A stretch of DNA of 64,000 nucleotides from Pseudomonadota bacterium (GCA_018261905.1 JAGTRU010000012.1:37170-101169), one strand, 5' to 3'; shown: positions 20,412 through 55,766, counted from the stretch's first letter. The notes: generated by a model from the letters alone, not told the origin. Program-made: numbers and translations.

Positions 20412-21572
20412 ATGTACCTACGTCAAGCCCGCAACACCTTGGACCGGCTAGCCCGGGGCTTCCCTGTGCTGGCCTTGACCGGGCCGCGTCAGTCCGGCAA
20501 GACGACGCTGGCGCGGGCCGGTTTTCCCGACAAACCTTATATTTCGCTGGAAAACCTAGACGAACGGGACTTTGCCGAGCATGACCCCAAGCGCTTCCTG
20601 GCGCGCTTTCCCGAAGGGGCGATTCTGGATGAAGTGCAGCGTTGCCCGGCGTTGTTGTCCTGGTTACAAGGCGTGGTCGACGAATGCCCGGTAATGGGCC
20701 AGTTTGTGCTGACCGGTTCGGCCCAGTTTGATCTGATTGCCGGCATGAGCCAGTCGCTGGCCGGCCGGGTAGGGCGGGTCGAACTGTTGCCGCTGTCGCT
20801 GACCGAAATGCAGGATGGCGACTGTCTGCCGCCGACGCTGGACCGCTTGCTGCTCAACGGCGCTTACCCGGCCATCTATCAGCGCGACCTGGCGGCGACG
20901 GACTGGTTTCCCAACTATGTGGCAACCTATCTGGAGCGCGATGTCCGGCAGATCATCGCCGTGCGCGATCTGTCGCAGTTCCAGCGCTTCGTGCGGATGT
21001 GCGCGGCACGCTCCGGGCAATTGCTCAATCTGGCGGCCCTGGGTGCCGATTGCGGCATCTCGGCGGTGACGGCGCGCGACTGGCTGTCGGTGCTGGAAGC
21101 CAGCTATCTGGTGACCCGTCTGCCGCCGTACTTCCAGAATTTCGGCAAACGCCTGGTGAAAACGCCCAAGCTCTATTTTCTCGATGTCGGCCTGATGGCC
21201 TGGCTGCTGGGAATCCGCGACGAAGCATCGCTAGCCACCCACGCCGCCCGAGGCGCCCTGTTTGAAACCTGGGTGGTGTCAGAACTGATCAAACAACGCT
21301 TTAATGATGGCCAGCCGGCCGACCTGTACTTCTGGCGCGATAGCGCCGGGCACGAAATCGACGTGGTATTCGAAACCGCCGCCGGTTTACAGGCAGTTGA
21401 AATCAAGTCCGGTAGCACCTTCGCAGCGGACTGGGTGGATGGGCTGAAGAAATGGCAGAAAATCGCCGGCGATACACCGACCCTGAAGCCCATCCTGATT
21501 TATGGCGGCGAGGACAGCCATGAGCGGGAGCGCTGTTTTCTTACCGGGTGGAAGGATGTGGGGCGGGGCTAG
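20412..21572 (+). CDS. AAA-type ATPase with DUF4143 domain
   Basis: Protein of 386 residues. Walker A is GPRQSGKTT (residues 24-32), Walker B is AILDEVQRCP, and sensor-like LTGSAQFDLI follows. The C-terminal DUF4143 region (FFRDSAGHEID-type, here YFWRDSAGHEIDVVFE) resembles a restriction-endonuclease-like fold. The family is common and mobile and its function is poorly known. A perfect 14-base inverted repeat ends just before the start codon. Confidence 0.88.
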   Translation: MYLRQARNTLDRLARGFPVLALTGPRQSGKTTLARAGFPDKPYISLENLDERDFAEHDPKRFLARFPEGAILDEVQRCPALLSWLQGVVDECPVMGQFVLTGSAQFDLIAGMSQSLAGRVGRVELLPLSLTEMQDGDCLPPTLDRLLLNGAYPAIYQRDLAATDWFPNYVATYLERDVRQIIAVRDLSQFQRFVRMCAARSGQLLNLAALGADCGISAVTARDWLSVLEASYLVTRLPPYFQNFGKRLVKTPKLYFLDVGLMAWLLGIRDEASLATHAARGALFETWVVSELIKQRFNDGQPADLYFWRDSAGHEIDVVFETAAGLQAVEIKSGSTFAADWVDGLKKWQKIAGDTPTLKPILIYGGEDSHERERCFLTGWKDVGRG

Positions 21573-21678
21573 CTTGCGACGGTCATCAAGCGAAATTCTC
21601 GAACTTTGAGTCAGGCCCTTTTGGCGTGCGGGAGAGGCAAGGTCGTAAAAAGAGCCTCGCCCGCCTGATTCCTGTGGC

Positions 21679-21990
21679 CTACGAAGGTGTGTGAATCGGC
21701 TGGGCGACCAGGCGAACGCCGAGCGCCGCGCAAACCTTGCTGATGGTTTCAAAACGCGGGCTGGCATCCGGGCGCAGCGCCTTGTAGAGGGCTTCGCGGG
21801 TAATCCCGGACGCCTTGGCAATGTCGCTCATGCCCCGCGCCCGCGCAATGGTGCCCAGCGCATCCGCCAGCGCCGCCGGATCATTTTCTTCCAGTATCAC
21901 GGTCAGATACTCGGCAACGGACTGCTCGTCCGGCAAATGCTCTGCCATGTCGAATTCGGGCAGATCGGTGATTTTGATTTTTCGGGTCAT
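21679..21990 (-). CDS. Addiction-module antitoxin (HTH antidote protein)
   Basis: Antitoxin of 103 residues. The N-terminal part (KITDLPEFDMAEHLPDEQSV) binds the toxin in this family and the C-terminal HTH (DIAKASGITREALYKALRPD) binds DNA. It lies 3 bases after the toxin gene, toxin first, as in HigBA-type loci. A decayed copy of its C-terminal half is at 17968-18150. Confidence 0.9.
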   Translation of the reverse strand: MTRKIKITDLPEFDMAEHLPDEQSVAEYLTVILEENDPAALADALGTIARARGMSDIAKASGITREALYKALRPDASPRFETISKVCAALGVRLVAQPIHTPS

Positions 21991-21993
21991 CGT

Positions 21994-22290
21994 TCAATCC
22001 TCCAGCATGGCGGCCAACCTGACGGCCTTGGCAATATCAGTTGTCTGCGTGCCTTTGTCGCCACCACCCAGCATCACAATCAGCACCTCGCCGCGTTGCA
22101 CGTAATACATGCGCCAGCCGGGTCCGAAGTGCTCCCGCATCTCAAACACGCCATCGCCAACCGACTTCACATCGCCAAGATTGCCTTTCTGGGCTTTCTC
22201 CAGGCGGCGCGCCAGACGACGATGCGTCATACCGTCCTTGAGGCCGTTCAGCCATGCGGTGAACTCGGGGAGGAGCTTGATCGAGTACAT
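21994..22290 (-). CDS. RelE/HigB-like toxin (addiction-module killer protein)
   Basis: Toxin of 98 residues. It shows the family pattern: SIKLLPEFTAWLNGLKD, RRLARRLEKAQKGNLGD, VFEMREHFGPGWRMYYV and LLGGGDKGTQ-like GGGDKGTQTTDI. These toxins cleave mRNA at the ribosome. The gene is complete and pairs with the antitoxin immediately downstream. A truncated copy is at 19390-19512. Confidence 0.9.
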   Translation of the reverse strand: MYSIKLLPEFTAWLNGLKDGMTHRRLARRLEKAQKGNLGDVKSVGDGVFEMREHFGPGWRMYYVQRGEVLIVMLGGGDKGTQTTDIAKAVRLAAMLED

Positions 22291-22417
22291 GGGTAAAGTG
22301 TAGTCGTTCGATTACGGTTGGTCAATTTTGAGCTGGGGGAGTCAAACCGTGGTCTGGCCGCTGTTGTTGCTAATCTCTCTGACCCTTTCGGTTTGTGATG
22401 CCTTTGGTTTGTGCAAA

Positions 22418-23077
22418 TTATGTGAAGCTAAGTACCATTTGGCGCACATAACTTCCCCAGTCTCGGTAACATCTTATCGAGGCAGATTTAACTGATGGAG
22501 CACCTTCCGTTACATCAAGTTTTTCTTTTAGAAGCCACATGGTTTGAGATATGTTTTTAATAGTTTTGTGTGCATCAAGGTTTGGAATAATTCCGGAGTC
22601 AATGAACCCTTTGTTTAAGTTTTTTGGGCCGCGGTGAATATTTTCTTGCCAAAAGTTTTTTTCTCTTTCATTCTTTGGTTCGATATTTCTTGACTCGAAG
22701 TTGTATGACCAATAATTAAATTCATCTTTCATTTTTTCAAACAATTTCTCTGAGATTATGAATATATCTAGATCAGAGTGTGGGCCAAAAGTTTTGCCCA
22801 ATTTATTGGGCGCGAGTGATTGGCCAATTCTTGCGCTGCCAGATAAATGAAGATCTTTTGGATCTACATCTAGCCGAATGCTAAGCCAGCCTCTAACTGA
22901 CTCGTAAAGTGCAGGATTGTCTCGAAAAGCATAAGGGATTCCTTCGGACATCCATAGTCGGGCTATGGCAATCTTCGACTGCTCGCCTCCTTTTTTTGCA
23001 GCATCGAGAAGTGCACTGGCTTCAGGATATGTGCCTGTAAGCTTAGCCAATTCGCTTGGTACTTTAAAAGCTTCCAT
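22418..23077 (-). CDS. Nucleotidyltransferase-like protein in an AT-rich pair
   Basis: Protein of 219 residues. GSARIGQSL (residues 80-88) followed by HSDLDIFII (100-108, Asp at 102 and 104) is the GS...DxD core of polymerase-beta-like nucleotidyltransferases, the fold of MNT, CD-NTase and related enzymes. A third acidic residue could be Asp168 (IPNLDAHK). No substrate can be assigned; it is short for a CD-NTase. It starts 10 bases after the GT51 gene on the same strand, so they form an operon. Codon use is visibly AT-rich against the GC-rich surroundings, a sign of transfer. Confidence 0.7.
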   Translation of the reverse strand: MEAFKVPSELAKLTGTYPEASALLDAAKKGGEQSKIAIARLWMSEGIPYAFRDNPALYESVRGWLSIRLDVDPKDLHLSGSARIGQSLAPNKLGKTFGPHSDLDIFIISEKLFEKMKDEFNYWSYNFESRNIEPKNEREKNFWQENIHRGPKNLNKGFIDSGIIPNLDAHKTIKNISQTMWLLKEKLDVTEGAPSVKSASIRCYRDWGSYVRQMVLSFT

Positions 23078-23087
23078 CGTTTTAGGC

Positions 23088-23648
23088 CTATTTTTTCGGA
23101 ATGGACGTTGTGTGGCGCTGAAGAATATAACTGGCTCGGGTTTTTATTTTTTTAATTCTATCAATGCTAGGGGTTTGGGGCTCTGGGTATTTTAGTCTAG
23201 CAACTATTTCGGCAGCTAAGTATGAGGTGATAGATTTAGGGTCAAAATTTAGACGTATAGCAGCTTGTTTGATTCCATTCATCTGCCATCCATAATAGGC
23301 AATCATTAGGTATATTCTTGGAATATCATTCTTTCCAATAATTTTTGTTATCCCTAATGCAAAAATTATTTCGATTAACTTTCTTTTGAGTGTTCTCTGA
23401 TAGCGTCCAGTTAGTACTCTTACTAGTTGCATCGCAATGGTTGAGCCGCCTTCGATTTTGTTTCCCCGAAGCATTTTCCAAGCCGCGCGAGCTAACGATT
23501 GAAGATCAACACCTGCATGTGACCAAAATCGATGGTCTTCTGCAACAATGAGCATTGTTGTTAGTTCTTCTGATATCTGAATATATTGGCATTTAGATTG
23601 AATATCTTTGGCCCGTGTTATTAGTAGAGTCCATTCTTCTAGCAGCAT
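23088..23648 (-). CDS. Stand-alone GT51 peptidoglycan transglycosylase-like protein
   Basis: Protein of 186 residues consisting of little more than a GT51 domain. AEDHRFWSHAGVD carries the first catalytic Glu (37), GGSTIAMQLVR is at 67-77, and KRKLIEIIFALG carries the second Glu (93). Normal GT51 enzymes (MtgA, class A PBPs) have an N-terminal membrane anchor; none is visible here, nor a signal peptide. It is the first gene of an AT-rich two-gene operon with a nucleotidyltransferase-like protein. Whether it polymerises glycan or has been repurposed, for example as an effector, is unknown. Confidence 0.75.
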   Translation of the reverse strand: MLLEEWTLLITRAKDIQSKCQYIQISEELTTMLIVAEDHRFWSHAGVDLQSLARAAWKMLRGNKIEGGSTIAMQLVRVLTGRYQRTLKRKLIEIIFALGITKIIGKNDIPRIYLMIAYYGWQMNGIKQAAIRLNFDPKSITSYLAAEIVARLKYPEPQTPSIDRIKKIKTRASYILQRHTTSIPKK

Positions 23649-23859
23649 GATCGTATAAATTAACCTAACCGAAATATATAAATGGACTATGTTTGGCCGA
23701 GGCTCGATACATATTCATATTGCCGCTTATCCATAAATGGCAAAGGATTGTATCGCCAAGCGTGCAATGAGTAAGAAGCCCCCAGGCTAGTTGACGGCTG
23801 TTTATGGCGCAAGTATTCAGTCGCGGGGAGTGGTCAATCCAATCTAGCACTCCCATCCC

Positions 23860-26800
23860 TTATATCCTCAACCGCGAATACCCAACCCCGCCGCCCTTCT
23901 CAACCCGTATCTGCGCCGGAATCCGTTCCTTCATGCCTTCGACGTGGCTGATGACGCCGATCATCTTCCCGCTGGCGTTCAGGGTGTCGAGGGCGTTGAG
24001 CGCGATTTCCAGGGTGTCGGCGTCGAGGGTGCCGAAGCCTTCGTCGAGGAATAGCGAGTCGATTGAGGTCTTGTGGCTGACCAGGTCGGAGAGGGCGAGG
24101 GCGAGCGCCAGACTGACCAGGAAGCTTTCGCCGCCCGATAGCGTGCGCGTGTCGCGGGCGACTTCGCCTTGCCAGCTATCGACGATGTCGAGTTCCAGTT
24201 CGCCGCTGCTTTTGCGGCGCAGCAGGTAGCGGCCGTGCAGGCGGGCGAGGTGGGCGTTGGCGAGGTGCAGCAGGTGGTCGAGGGTCAGGCCCTGGGCGAA
24301 CTTGCGGAACTTGTCGCCTTTGGCCGAGCCGATCAGGCTGTCGAGGCGTTGCCAGAGGTCGCTTTCGGTGGTCTGCGCGGCGATTTCCTTGAACAGCGCT
24401 TGCTGGTTCTGGCGCGCCTGTTCGTCGCGGGTGAGCAGGGCGCGCTGGGCGCCGAGTTGTTCGCTGAGTTCGCGGCGCGTGGTGTCGAGTTGAGTTAGGA
24501 GGTATTCCAGTTCAGGGAGGGTTGGGAACCCATCCCCCTCCCAGCCTCCCCCTTGAAGGGGGAGGAGTTTGGCCGGCGGGCTGCTTTGCAGGCGCAGCAG
24601 CTTTTCGCTGGCGGCCTTGAGCACGGCAGCGGCCTGCTGCTGGGCGAGTTGCCGGGCTTCCTTCAATTGCAGCAGGCGCTGGCGTTCTTCGGCGGGGAGC
24701 AGCGCCGCCGCGTAGGCGGCGAGGTCGGCGAAGGGGCTGGCGGCGAGGTCGGTTTGCCAGGCGGTCGACGCGTCGGCGAGGGCCTTTTTCTGTTCTGCCA
24801 GATTGGCGGCGAGCTGCGCCTGCCGGCCTTGCTGGGCGGCGAGTTGCTGCGTCAGGTCGGCGATGGCTTCGGCGCAGCGGGCGAGGGCGGCGGCCGGGTT
24901 GGCGCTGACTTCCGCCAGTTTTTGCCCTTCCTGGGCGGTCGACCGTTCGGCGGCGACGATTTTCCAGCGGTCCTGCCAGTGCGCGGCTTGCGCCTGCGCG
25001 GCCTCAGTGCGGTCCTGCTGCTTGACGAGAATTTCGCCGAGTTCCTGGCGGCGTTTCTGCGTCTGCTGCCAGTGTTGCCATTCGCCGTCGCGCTCCTGCA
25101 GCCAGGCGGCGGGTTCGGCGGGGATTTCGTAGCCGGCGGCGCTCAGCGTGGCGCCGAGTTTGGCGTCGAGGTCGACCTGTTCCTGGGCGATGGCTTGTGC
25201 GGCTTTGGCGAGTTCGGCCTGGCGTTGCTGGCCGGTTTGCGTCGCCTGTTGCAGCAGTTTCTGCTGGTTGCCGGCGTTGAGCAGCGTCTGCGCGGCTTCG
25301 GCGGCGGTTTTGCGGGCGGCGTTGAGCGCCTGTTCGCCCTGATCGGCGGCTTGCAGGCGTTGGGCGAGTTGGGCCAGCGCCTGTTCGGCGGCGGCGCGGC
25401 TGGCAGCCAGGATTTTTGCGTCCTGCCAGGCGTCGACCGCGAGGGGTGTGGTGCTGGCGAGGTTGGCGACCAGTTCGGCCCATTCCGCTTGCAGGTGGGC
25501 GCCATCCGCGGCCGTCTTGCTTTGCTGCTCGAGCAGGACCTTTTGCGTCGTTTGCGCCGCGGTTTGCTCGTTGCGGGCTTGCTGGCCGGTTTCCACCAGC
25601 GCGTCGAGCGCCGCCTGCTTTTCCTTGAGCGCGTTTTCGGTCGTGGAAACGTCGAGCGCCGCGTAGTCGGCAATCGCCGGGTGTTCGTGCGCGCCGCACA
25701 GCGGGCAGGCGTCGCCCGGCTGCAGTTGCCGGCGATGCTCTTCCAGGCTGCGGATGCGCTGTTCCTGTTCGAGCAGTTTTTTCTTGTCGGCGACCTGGGC
25801 GGCGAGTTCCTTGTGCTGTTCGCGCAGGGCGACCAGCTTTTTCTCCTGTGCTTCGATCTTCGCCTGCGCCTGCTGTAATTGCGTCGCCTGCGCGCTTTGC
25901 GTCGCGGCGAGTTCGCGCCGGCGCTGGGCGAGGGCTTCGAGTTGTTGCCAGCGATTCAGGCCGGTTTGTTCGCGCTGCCAGTGCTGGCGCAGTTCGGCCA
26001 GGGTCTGGCCGGCCAGGCGCTGGTTTTGTTCGGACTGGATTTTTTCCAGCGCGGCGTCGGCGGCGGTTTTTGCCTTTTCTGAGAGGACGACCGCTGTGGC
26101 TTGCGTGGCGAGTTGGCGGGCGGTGGCGGCGAGTTCATCGGCCAATTTTTGCTGCGCCTGCTGCTGGGCGGCGAGGTCACGGCCCAGTTTTGCCTTTTGC
26201 TCGAACTGCTGGCGCCAGACGCCGAGGCGTTCGCCGAGTTGGGCGCGTTGCGGCTGGGCGGCGCAGAAGTCGTCGATTTGTTTGGCTTCGCTCTGGCTGA
26301 GTTGCAGGGCCTGCTGCGCCAGGGTGGCGACTGCGGCGCTGTAGTGCCGGGCGGCGGCGTGCTGGGCGAGCTGTTCGGTTTGCAGCTTTTCGCGGGCGGC
26401 GTGCAGGGTTTTGAGTTCGTTTTCGCTGTGCTGGCAGGCGGCACCGGCCTGTTGCCATTGCAGGTGCAGCGGTTTGAGCGTTTCGGCCGGTTCGCTGGCG
26501 GTGAGCCTGGCCAGTTCGGGCGCGGCGGCAGTCAGCGCAGCCTCGGCTTCCTGCTGCTTGCCTTCGGCGGCTTTGACTTCCTGCTCGCCTTGCGCCAGGT
26601 CGAGGCGCCACTGGCGCTGGGCTTGGGTTTGATCGTGGTGGCGCTGGACGTCGGCGAGTTGCATATCGAGGCGGGCGACTTCGGTTTGCATCGCGGTACG
26701 TTGCTCGTCAGAGAGCAGTTCCATGCCGTCAGCGCGGGCTTTGAGCTGGTCGAGCTGGCTTTTTGCCTCGCGCGCCTGCTCGAAAACCTTGCGCGAAATT

Positions 26801-50044: not shown

Positions 50045-50061
50045 GACAGTAACTGCTATAA

Positions 50062-50090
50062 AAGGAACTCTGAGGAGTTCCTTTTTTTTA
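50062..50090 (+). terminator. Rho-independent terminator of purL
   Basis: AAGGAACTC and GAGTTCCTT arms around TGAG, followed by a run of eight T residues, 18 bases after the stop codon. The hairpin sequence nearly repeats that at 55738-55766. Confidence 0.93.
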
Positions 50091-50276: not shown

Positions 50277-51002
50277 ATGGTCGATATGGAACACTTGCAG
50301 GCATTGTTGAATTGTGCGACGGAGAGCGATTGGCAGGAGGTGTTCTTCTCGCTCTGCCGTGGTCAGGGTTTCGATCTGGCATTGTTTGCGGTGGTGCCGA
50401 GTCGGCATGTGGCATTGGAGAGTGCTTTCGTGCACAGCAGTTATGCCCCCCGCTGGCGCGCTACCTACGATACGGAGAAATTGCACTATGTCGATCCGAC
50501 GGTCGAGCATTGTCTGGCGAGGAATGTGCCAGTCGTGTGGTCACCTTCGATTTTTCGCAGTAGCTGCCAGAAACGCCTTTACGAGGAGGCATCGGCCTAC
50601 GGGATTCGTTCCGGGATTACCTTCCCCATTCACGGCCCACGGGGTGAGTTCGGCGTATTGAGCTTGGCGACTGGAAATCTGGGTAGCCGTGACTTCATCA
50701 GCGAATTTGGCCATACCTTGCCCGATCTGGCGTTGATTCGGGATTACGTTTTTGAGTCCTGTTTGCGTTTCGCACCGGGGGGGCGATCGGCCGAACGCAC
50801 AGTGCATCTCACGCCGCGTGAGCGGGAGTGCCTGCAATGGAGCATGGAAGGCAAGTCCTCATGGGAGATCGCCCGAATATTGTGTTGCTCGGAGGCGACG
50901 GTAAATTTTCATGTGGCGAATATCCGGCGCAAGTTCGACGTGACCACACGTCGTCAGGCGGTGGTAAAGGCAATCCGCCTTGGTTTGATTAGCGTGGGCT
51001 GA
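50277..51002 (+). CDS. luxR: LuxR-family quorum-sensing regulator
   Basis: Protein of 241 residues. The N-terminal autoinducer-binding domain has WRATYDTEKLHYVDPTV and VWSPSIF-type segments (conserved Trp, Tyr and Asp), then GITFPIHGPRGEFGVLSLAT. The C-terminal HTH is LTPRERECLQWSMEGKSSWE, then CCSEATVNFHVANIRRKFDV. It should bind an acyl-homoserine lactone made by the nearby LuxI. The ATG at 50277 follows GAGGAAAG. It is first in the cluster, in the same direction as luxI. Confidence 0.93.
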   Translation: MVDMEHLQALLNCATESDWQEVFFSLCRGQGFDLALFAVVPSRHVALESAFVHSSYAPRWRATYDTEKLHYVDPTVEHCLARNVPVVWSPSIFRSSCQKRLYEEASAYGIRSGITFPIHGPRGEFGVLSLATGNLGSRDFISEFGHTLPDLALIRDYVFESCLRFAPGGRSAERTVHLTPRERECLQWSMEGKSSWEIARILCCSEATVNFHVANIRRKFDVTTRRQAVVKAIRLGLISVG

Positions 51003-51285
51003 GTTCCGACTGCCTCGGGGGCATCGTCGGGGGCTTCGGTGCCGGGGTGGTGCGGGCCGAACGTAAATCGCTGTCGCTGACAGCTCCGTCCAGATAGAGA
51101 CTGAGCAGGATGGCAACAGGGAAAGGTATTTCCATACCGAGTTCAAAGCGACTCCCTCGTGACTGTGAAACACCAAAACGCTGCCAGAAACGGGTCTGAC
51201 TTTCGCGCTTTCTCTTGCGCAATGCACGCAATTCTGCAGCACTTACTGCAAACCTGCCGATCGTTTTGGATGGATGTTCTTTCAT
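50989..51285 (-). CDS. XRE-like HTH regulator between luxR and luxI
   Basis: Protein of 98 residues. ELRALRKRKRESQTRFWQRF, then GVSQSRGSRFELGMEIPFPV is the HTH of a small XRE-like family (FWxRFGVSQSxGSRYE pattern), followed by LLSLYLDGAVSDSDL and a Pro-rich tail. It lies antisense between luxR and luxI and its 3' end overlaps the luxR end by 14 bases. It could modulate the quorum-sensing genes, which is inference. Confidence 0.78.
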   Translation of the reverse strand: MKEHPSKTIGRFAVSAAELRALRKRKRESQTRFWQRFGVSQSRGSRFELGMEIPFPVAILLSLYLDGAVSDSDLRSARTTPAPKPPTMPPRQSELSPR

Positions 51286-51468
51286 ATGGCTTCTTGAGTC
51301 AGGTTCTCTGCTGGGCGGACTATTTCAGCACCCTGGGCGAATGGGAGAGGAATAATCCAGTCTCTCTCGAAGCATTTCAACCTGTCTGTTGTGATGATTG
51401 CCGGATTACCCGATACGCATATCATGGGCCGCCTGAAGTCATCGAGGCGAAAGAAAGAGAGGCCCATC

Positions 51469-52056
51469 ATGTCGCTGCAGATTCAAATTGCTCCCCGGCG
51501 GGAATTTCAGAGCAAAGTGCTGTGGGAAATGCACAAACTTCGTGCCAAAGTCTTCCGGGATCGGATGGGTTGGGAGGTGGCGGTGATGAGTGGGATGGAA
51601 ATCGATGGTTACGACGCGATCGATCCCTATTACATGCTGATCAGGGAGGCGGGGGGCGAGTTGCGGGGATGCTGGCGTATATTGCCAACCGAGGGCCCCT
51701 ACATGTTGAAAGACTCGTTCCCGCAATTGCTGCATGGCCAAGTCGCGCCACAGGATCCCGATGTGTGGGAATTGAGTCGCTTTGCTATCGATACCGATGG
51801 CCGCCATAGCTTTGGTTTTTCCGAGGTTGCCATGGAGTCGATACGGGAAATCATCGCCTATGGGCATCGGAGTGGCATCCGCTTCTATGTCACGGTGACC
51901 ACTACTGCTATTGAGCGGCTCTTGCGTCGCGCCGGTGTTTCCATTGCCCGTCTCGGACCGGATATGAGGATCGGTGTCGAGAATGCGGTGGCGCTATATG
52001 TTGATGTCGGCAAAACCTACGAGCGTATTTGCGGTGCCTTGCCGCAGGCGGCCTGA
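51469..52056 (+). CDS. luxI: Acyl-homoserine-lactone synthase
   Basis: Protein of 195 residues that makes the autoinducer from S-adenosylmethionine and an acyl-ACP. Family positions are present: LRAKVFRDRMGW, EIDGYDAIDPYYML (Asp pair), LRGCWRILPTEGPYML and WELSRFAID (Glu, Ser-Arg). The ATG at 51469 has GAGAGG upstream; upstream in-frame ATGs do not. No clear lux box was found in the 183-base spacer before it. It forms a pair with luxR. Confidence 0.93.
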   Translation: MSLQIQIAPRREFQSKVLWEMHKLRAKVFRDRMGWEVAVMSGMEIDGYDAIDPYYMLIREAGGELRGCWRILPTEGPYMLKDSFPQLLHGQVAPQDPDVWELSRFAIDTDGRHSFGFSEVAMESIREIIAYGHRSGIRFYVTVTTTAIERLLRRAGVSIARLGPDMRIGVENAVALYVDVGKTYERICGALPQAA

Positions 52057-52123
52057 GCCTTGTCGAATCGATTCGGGTCGTGGGCCATTTTTCGATCCGG
52101 CGAGGGCTGGTCGAGGTGCTCCG

Positions 52124-52693
52124 TTAGCCGGCAAGGAGAGGGACGCTTACGGTTAGCGAAGGACGCGAGCAGTAATATCCGAACAATTCCTGCGTTTCGC
52201 CATCTTTTGCCAGGGTGTATAGCCCAAAGCATATGCTGAGCTTCTCCATGCCATGTCCTTTTGTTCTTGATTCGAGGCTGGAAAAATCGATGCTGGTATG
52301 GCCTGGGGGGATGCCGGTTTCAACCTCGGGGTCTGGCGTTACTGCGTAGGAGCGGGTCAGAAACGATGGTGAAAATGCGTTGAATGCCATCTCTCCGGCC
52401 GTGTATTCAAGGCTGTACACGACTACAGCATCATCCGAATTGTGGTAGATCGAGGTGCCGGAGATCGAGACGTAGTCGCCGGCATTGGCGCTGAATTGCA
52501 GGTTGGCGCTGCATTGCCCCGCGATATTTCCGCGAGCGCCGCTGCCGAGTATGAACAGATTTTCCTGATCGACCGGGGTTGGGGCGGCGGGGTCTTGGCT
52601 GGGAGCGGGGAGCGTCGCCTTGACGTTTGCCGTGTCAACGACGACCAGTATGTTGATGATGGCGGTAGAAACAGCATCCACGTCTGATTGCAT
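52124..52693 (-). CDS. AidA/PixA inclusion-body family protein (copy 2)
   Basis: Protein of 189 residues. IINILVVVDTANVKA at the N-terminus, YVSISGTSIYHNSDDAVVVY in the middle and ICFGLYTLAKDGETQELFGY at the end define the AidA/PixA family. Members form cytoplasmic inclusions in Xenorhabdus and are quorum-sensing-controlled in Burkholderia; molecular function is unknown. A second copy is at 52888-53442, about 200 bases upstream on the same strand, and luxI is convergent. GAGAGGACTC precedes the ATG. Confidence 0.88.
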   Translation of the reverse strand: MQSDVDAVSTAIINILVVVDTANVKATLPAPSQDPAAPTPVDQENLFILGSGARGNIAGQCSANLQFSANAGDYVSISGTSIYHNSDDAVVVYSLEYTAGEMAFNAFSPSFLTRSYAVTPDPEVETGIPPGHTSIDFSSLESRTKGHGMEKLSICFGLYTLAKDGETQELFGYYCSRPSLTVSVPLLAG

Positions 52694-52799
52694 GATGAGT
52701 CCTCTCTTGCGAATTCAAAACGTTGCGCCGACCGTGAGGCTAACGAGCGCCAAAAATCTTGATGACAAGCGGCATTGCAATATGACATCTCCGCGGTTT

Positions 52800-52818
52800 G
52801 GCGAAGAAGGTCTTCGCC
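52800..52818. repeat. Hairpin between the two aidA copies
   Basis: GGCGAAGA and TCTTCGCC flank AGG. No T-run follows on the minus strand, so it may be an intercistronic RNA hairpin and not a full terminator. Confidence 0.4.
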
Positions 52819-52887
52819 GGGTGACTCGGCAAGACGACGGCGCTCGAGAGTCAAGCGCCATCGTTCGGAGCGTTGAAGCGAAATCCG

Positions 52888-53442
52888 TCAACCTACGGTA
52901 ATCGTCGGATCCCAGTAGTAGTAACCAAATAGCTGTTGCGTTTCCCCGTCGGGAGCCAGTGTGTAAAGCCCAAAATTGACGTAGAAATTCTCGCTGCCCG
53001 CCTTGGCGACTTTCGAGTCAAGGCTTGAGAAATTGATCGAGGCTTGCACCGGGGGAATCCCGTTCGAGGTGCTGGTGTTCGGGATCACCGCTTTCGACCG
53101 TGTCACGATGTTGGGCACGAAGGTGTTGAAGACAGAGTCGCCGCTCCAATATTTGATGCCGTAAATGATTACCGCATCATCGGAGTTGTTATAGATCGAA
53201 GTGCCGGTGAACCCCACGTAATCGCCGACGTTGGCCCGGAAGTTAAGGTCGGCGGTTCCCTGGCCCCCGATGATGCCGCGCGATCCCGTGCAAATCATGA
53301 ACTGACTGCTATGGTTGATGCCGGTTGGGTGGGCTGGATCTGTGCTGGGATTGGGGTAATTCTTCTTGACATACTCGGTGTCGATCACGATGAGAACGTT
53401 GATCTGTTGCACGCTGGCGGCATCTATTGAGATTGATGTCAT
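52888..53442 (-). CDS. AidA/PixA inclusion-body family protein (copy 1)
   Basis: Protein of 184 residues, paralogous to the gene at 52124-52693: INVLIVIDTEYVKKNYPNPS, YVGFTGTSIYNNSDDAVIIY and VNFGLYTLAPDGETQQLFGY match equivalent parts. The two are clearly divergent in sequence, so duplication is not recent. AAAGGGAAAAG precedes the ATG. A lux-box-like dyad lies about 130 bases upstream (53571-53590), which would fit quorum-sensing control. Confidence 0.9.
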   Translation of the reverse strand: MTSISIDAASVQQINVLIVIDTEYVKKNYPNPSTDPAHPTGINHSSQFMICTGSRGIIGGQGTADLNFRANVGDYVGFTGTSIYNNSDDAVIIYGIKYWSGDSVFNTFVPNIVTRSKAVIPNTSTSNGIPPVQASINFSSLDSKVAKAGSENFYVNFGLYTLAPDGETQQLFGYYYWDPTITVG

Positions 53443-53570: not shown

Positions 53571-53590
53571 ACCTATGTTCTTTGCTAGGT
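53571..53590 (-). promoter_or_regulatory. Candidate lux box upstream of aidA
   Basis: A 20-base element that begins ACCTA and ends TAGGT on both strands. The Vibrio fischeri lux box is also 20 bases with ACCT...AGGT ends. It is 129 bases before the first aidA start codon and about 3.3 kb from luxR. The centre is not well conserved. Confidence 0.4.
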
Positions 53591-55737: not shown

Positions 55738-55766
55738 GGAAAGGAACTCCGCGGAGTTCCTTTCTC
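55738..55766. terminator. Bidirectional terminator between cstA and the methyltransferase gene
   Basis: AAAGGAACTCC and GGAGTTCCTTT form an almost loopless palindrome between the convergent genes. It shares the GGAACTC/GAGTTCC stem with the purL terminator. The T-run is weaker. Confidence 0.7.

Follow-up and report, generated by a model that had tools for sequence, protein, structure and literature searches.

Exploring a 64,000-nucleotide stretch of DNA from a Pseudomonadota bacterium (GCA_018261905.1; the whole stretch is hereafter called the window), we found a cluster of five genes that, as read from the sequence, is very probably a laterally acquired acyl-homoserine lactone (AHL) module of the L1 type with a built-in aidA output. 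Homologues of luxR, rsaL and luxI are followed by two genes of the PixA/AidA family, and predicted LasR-type boxes lie upstream of luxI and of aidA2 (Table 1). All five genes named in a preliminary description of this DNA were present, with Pfam matches far above chance, and the helix-turn-helix (HTH) gene said to overlap luxR does so by 14 bp at the 3' ends of both (50989-51002). The aidA pair had been called convergent; it is convergent with luxI, whereas aidA1 and aidA2 are arranged in tandem on the minus strand and do not converge on each other.

Table 1. Genes and predicted sites of the cluster, with positions counted from the first letter of the window
Feature	Position	Strand	Properties
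luxR homologue, LasR/BraR type	50277..51002	+	241 aa; PF03472 6.4e-31, PF00196 7e-21
rsaL homologue	50989..51285	-	98 aa; PF22495 RsaL-like HTH 9.4e-22, above cut-off
Degenerate LasR-type box ACCTGTCTGTTGTGATGATT	51380..51399	+	Predicted; 69 bp before luxI start; PWM 5.9, seventh best in 64 kb
RsaL half-site candidate CGCATA/TATGCG	51416..51421		rsaL-luxI intergenic; weak
luxI homologue, LasI/BraI type AHL synthase	51469..52056	+	195 aa; PF00765 5.9e-34
aidA1, PixA/AidA-family	52124..52693	-	189 aa; PF12306 3.6e-34
aidA2, PixA/AidA-family	52888..53442	-	184 aa; PF12306 3.2e-50
LasR-type lux box ACCTAGCAAAGAACATAGGT (aidA2 strand)	53571..53590	-	Predicted; 128 bp upstream of aidA2 start
cstA	start 53881	+	Shares upstream region with aidA2

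In a search against solved structures, the closest protein to the luxR product was LasR (6mwh, E 1.2e-52) and the closest to the luxI product was LasI (1ro5, E 4.9e-64; next chain 3p2f, 3.2e-26). LuxR is 39% identical to LasR and retains Y56, W60, Y64, D73, T75, W88 and S129, which belong to the ligand pocket in LasR; LuxI shares 50% identity with LasI, and R23, F27, W33, D44, D47, R70 and F84, which are catalytic residues in LasI, are conserved. The two AidA proteins are 52% identical to each other, the PixA domain spans nearly the full length of both (residues 12-182 and 13-183), and the PixA/AidA family profile matches a solved PixA protein (4lzk, 3e-38). The rsaL homologue lies antisense between luxR and luxI and is divergent from luxI, likewise in P. 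aeruginosa and relatives. By homology and gene layout, the three-gene unit luxR>, <rsaL, luxI> is of the LasR-RsaL-LasI kind and has the L1 topology, the name under which the R>, <L, I> arrangement of lasR-rsaL-lasI and braR-rsaL-braI was published with RsaL as the repressor (PMC3742214); the mechanism of repression by RsaL has also been described (PMC10746200). P. aeruginosa lasR-rsaL-lasI, compared here in the copy carried by a plasmid record (L125), and likewise P. putida ppuR-rsaL-ppuI, share with the window the same three families, order and orientation, and the 3' overlap of luxR and rsaL measures 11 bp in P. aeruginosa las versus 14 bp in the window. The las locus, however, has no adjoining aidA, and its luxI box and RsaL palindrome are clear, whereas in the window the luxI box is degenerate and the RsaL site partial.

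The intervening HTH protein matched P. aeruginosa RsaL (5j2y) with an E value of 4.8e-16 over 61 residues and was 42.5% identical to it across an 80-residue alignment; on this similarity, the gene is an RsaL homologue and a predicted repressor of the rsaL-luxI promoter. The label XRE-type, previously given to it, is imprecise, the specific family being RsaL-like (HTH_92, PF22495). It had also been suggested that the gene might be an added control, similar in position to RsaM-type modulators but of another family. The comparison of position stands, but in las and bra systems that place is occupied by rsaL itself, and since the gene is a homologue of RsaL, a known negative regulator with the same place and orientation between lasR and lasI, it is not an unrecognised control. 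An RsaM identity was ruled out, a DUF4902 match being absent, and reading the gene as a generic XRE regulator or as part of a toxin-antitoxin pair was weaker than reading it as RsaL. It is most improbable that the protein is some other RsaL-like HTH member with a different target, not an RsaL orthologue, like the genus-wide paralogue that occurs without luxI. PF22495 is indeed broader than RsaL, with a member above cut-off in 43 of 61 relatives though few of them have luxI, and the full RsaL palindrome TATG-N7-CATA was not found in the window, where the rsaL-luxI region carries a half-site only; against this stand the E value and identity of the RsaL match, the mere 36-41% identity over short stretches between the HTH protein and the two paralogues of its own genome, and the presence of a homologue at the rsaL position in every close module relative with a complete locus. 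The two further RsaL-like HTH proteins of the genome are encoded at G000:C48:49244-49390 (L003) and G000:C24:80169-80366 (L002). The C48 protein is conserved almost throughout the genus, and also in other families, without luxI, and therefore PF22495 includes an RsaL-like regulator that is not tied to quorum sensing.

A search for LuxI among 399 genomes of the order (Burkholderiales, GTDB sense) revealed nearest relatives of 57-70% identity. The order luxR, antisense rsaL, luxI was found in all eight of these with complete loci, while in a ninth (G323) luxI alone is visible, close to a contig end; the LuxI relatives examined at ~54% identity or less had no rsaL beside luxI. None of the nearest relatives has aidA, and PixA is rare in the order (5/399 genomes). 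Among 36 other genomes of the genus, a PixA gene was present in none and a comparable LuxI in one alone (G028), where the same luxR-rsaL-luxI trio adjoins a lipA-like gene and is not accompanied by aidA. The LuxI tree placed the window protein in the LasI/BraI clade, with the Sol/Cep lineage across a 100/100 branch, and grouped it with the proteins of two genomes of another family (G389 and G334; 100/99 support), apart from that of G028. The braR-rsaL-braI loci of plant-associated Paraburkholderia have the same topology and families as the window, and the BraI-type LuxI of P. metrosideri is 57% identical to the window LuxI; in this genome (G291), however, aidA adjoins a second LuxI of Sol/Cep type, and the BraI-type LuxI lies with RsaL on another contig.

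In composition, too, the cluster differs from its surroundings: its GC content is 55.4%, as against 62-64% in purL, in cstA and in the genes that come next, and its GC3 is 54-71% versus 78-84% in the flanks. A luxR gene downstream of purL was absent from every same-genus purL locus fetched. In G020, the purL hairpin is directly followed by a ybaK-like gene, which in the window is found at about 57600; the window therefore holds ~7.5 kb of extra DNA, including cstA and two further genes. Because the low GC stops at cstA, the part comprising quorum sensing and aidA probably has its own history. Given its lower GC, its absence after purL in relatives and the grouping of its LuxI with those of another family over the same-genus LuxI, we concluded that the signalling cluster was probably acquired laterally. 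The luxR...cstA segment is flanked by two almost identical terminator-like hairpins of the form AAAGGAACTC-nnn-GAGTTCCTTT (50060-50087 and 55740-55766); G020 has a single copy, 3' of purL.

The regulatory argument for aidA as the output, made from predicted sites, is good. A symmetrised position weight matrix (PWM) derived from nine rsaL-luxI boxes of other genomes, none of them from the window, ranked the aidA2 box first in 64 kb with a score of 16.8; the next site reached 10.9, and the maximum among 30 random 64-kb sequences was 14.0. With up to one mismatch allowed, the pattern ACCTAKCNNNNNNGMTAGKT matched the aidA2 box and nothing else in the 4.9 Mb genome, versus eight matches for a reversed control pattern; the pattern was written after this site had been seen, which weakens the genome-wide test but not the PWM test, and the genome-wide target prediction consists of this one search. 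The aidA2 box belongs to the LasR class and not to the Cep class, and a strong lux box of its own was not found for aidA1. In ten other rsaL-luxI loci, a LasR-type box starts 75-103 bp before the luxI match, in the forms ACCTAGCA..TGCTAGTT or ACCTATC..GATAGTT and similar; the luxI box of the window sits at this conserved position, its left half intact and its right half without AG. When lux-type boxes were scored family-wide with a cut-off of 9 or more of 10, one was detected upstream of aidA in 7/7 loci with luxI/luxR beside aidA (window included) and in 10/11 other Burkholderia-group loci, but in 0/28 Bacteroidota loci and 0/7 others; with shuffled aidA upstream regions, 0.03-0.18 loci with a box are expected per group. 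As the loci are related to one another, these counts do not represent independent events. The P. metrosideri box lies beside a truncated first aidA copy.

Lux boxes being palindromic, a box in the upstream region common to aidA2 and cstA might serve cstA instead of, or besides, aidA2. We consider such a role highly unlikely: the distance from the box is 290 bp to cstA versus 128 bp to aidA2, aidA of other genomes is likewise preceded by boxes at a distance of ~110-165 bp, and the GC content of cstA is host-like (62%, GC3 84%). For the box as a site of aidA2 control, we propose that LuxI would make an AHL, which to judge from the kinship of LuxI with LasI/BraI is most likely of the long-chain 3-oxo type, and that AHL-bound LuxR would activate aidA2, together with aidA1 behind it, from the aidA2 box. 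The rsaL-luxI promoter would be activated by AHL-bound LuxR less strongly than aidA2, and RsaL would cap signal synthesis by binding in the interval that separates the LuxR box from luxI. The AHL signal, LuxR binding, aidA activation and RsaL repression are all steps that we infer from gene and site predictions; as the luxI box is degenerate and the search for a complete RsaL palindrome yielded a half-site only, autoinduction and the braking role of RsaL are put forward on the basis of kinship and layout. In its classical form, the loop of autoinduction and RsaL may be weak here or may act through other sites, and aidA1 may be transcribed from a promoter of its own.

In Burkholderia and Ralstonia, proteins of the AidA type rank among those under the strongest quorum control, and AidA homologues are required for full virulence of Ralstonia on tomato and help Burkholderia to kill nematodes. 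Surveying 50 named loci with AidA relatives, we found luxI and luxR close to aidA in six, those of Rhodanobacter glycinis, Paraburkholderia rhynchosiae, P. terricola, P. metrosideri, Paraburkholderia sp. UYCP14C and Caballeronia sordidicola; an RsaL match was obtained in 0/6. The intervening genes of the Rhodanobacter (L046) and Caballeronia (L067) loci are DUF4902 matches, and the Caballeronia protein matches B. cenocepacia BCAM1869 (4o2h), which is known as RsaM; at the UYCP14C locus (L084), a protein similar to RsaM was recognised by eye. These three luxR-rsaM-luxI loci with aidA follow the same logic as the window, i.e. a synthase, a receptor, a small intervening regulator and an aidA output with a lux box, but they combine RsaM (DUF4902) with a CepI/SolI-like synthase, whereas the window combines RsaL with a LasI-like one. 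The LuxI proteins from three of the six aidA-luxI loci, those tested, form a separate clade (100/100).

Control of aidA has been studied in Ralstonia and B. cenocepacia. In Ralstonia solanacearum UW551, lecM, aidA and aidC adjoin solI/solR and are 55-, 31- and 2-fold lower, respectively, without solI (PMC4596706), and in B. cenocepacia CepR binds the aidA promoter (PMC1766932). In Ralstonia, aidA is thus beside a LuxI/LuxR pair and activated by that pair, as proposed for the window, although SolI/R represent another LuxI/LuxR lineage with divergent genes and no RsaL described, and the window has no lectin gene. The idea that the cluster is a compact autoinducer-output unit has held up, with a LasR-type box before aidA2 whose pattern is matched nowhere else in the genome, recurrence of luxI/luxR with aidA in six named loci, and expression data from Ralstonia. 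It is unlikely that the neighbourhood arose by chance, through insertion of an aidA pair next to a LasR-RsaL-LasI module in the purL-ybaK interval, with aidA not controlled by the window LuxR. Many genomes do carry aidA without luxI, e.g. the 28 Bacteroidota loci and Sulfuriferula, the nearest LuxI relatives lack aidA and the full order was seen once; but the LasR-type box at the aidA2 promoter, the low GC common to all five genes and the independent linkage of luxI with aidA in other lineages, with proof from expression in Ralstonia, argue against coincidence.

The combination of LasR-RsaL-LasI with aidA is new and was found at the window alone, each half being known already. The order luxR-XRE-luxI-aidA, for which conserved linkage in relatives had been set as a test, is conserved piecewise: luxR-rsaL-luxI is kept in relatives of the module and luxI-aidA in a different LuxI lineage, but the full five-gene order was found at the window only. 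A second genome with that full order was not found, and a single case does not suffice to demonstrate selection for keeping the genes linked. We tentatively suggest, as a possibility that we rate somewhat below even, that aidA has been coupled independently at least twice to unrelated quorum-sensing lineages, here with a promoter switch to a LasR-type box in a mobile 'private' cassette, whose receptor would have essentially one strong host target, aidA, and whose own autoinduction box has decayed. The unit would exemplify, in nature, an output gene swapping its quorum-sensing partner. With a synthase, a receptor, a brake and a single predicted output, it would be a simple system in which to ask what AidA does for a group of cells. 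The parts are familiar and their combination unusual, so that the surprise is moderate.

Genes for AidA relatives were also seen in other contexts. In six Burkholderia-group loci (L078, L080, L081, L083, L085 and L086), three PixA/AidA genes are distributed over the two strands, with luxI absent within the fetched flanks, and two Rhizobium leguminosarum loci (L051 and L127) carry a tandem aidA pair. On the Ta9k plasmid, the aidA pair lies between IS5 transposases and adjoins an EAL-domain gene, with no luxI annotated nearby; the R. leguminosarum plasmid context hints that aidA pairs move on their own. AidA relatives were found in 16 plasmid records, in two of which, those examined, an annotated LuxI was absent, and an AidA relative was not confirmed in viral contigs. 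On plasmids, the RsaL matches came from the las locus of P. aeruginosa and from an Azospira HTH gene that is unrelated, and the LuxI matches were LasI and rhizobial TraI-type synthases. Elsewhere in the window, the lowest-GC stretch (20701-24200, ~51%) carries adjoining genes for an AAA_14/DUF4143 ATPase (PADLOC candidate PDC-S01, 1.6e-105), a weakly matching nucleotidyltransferase-like protein and a stand-alone transglycosylase-domain protein (PF00912, 1.3e-34).
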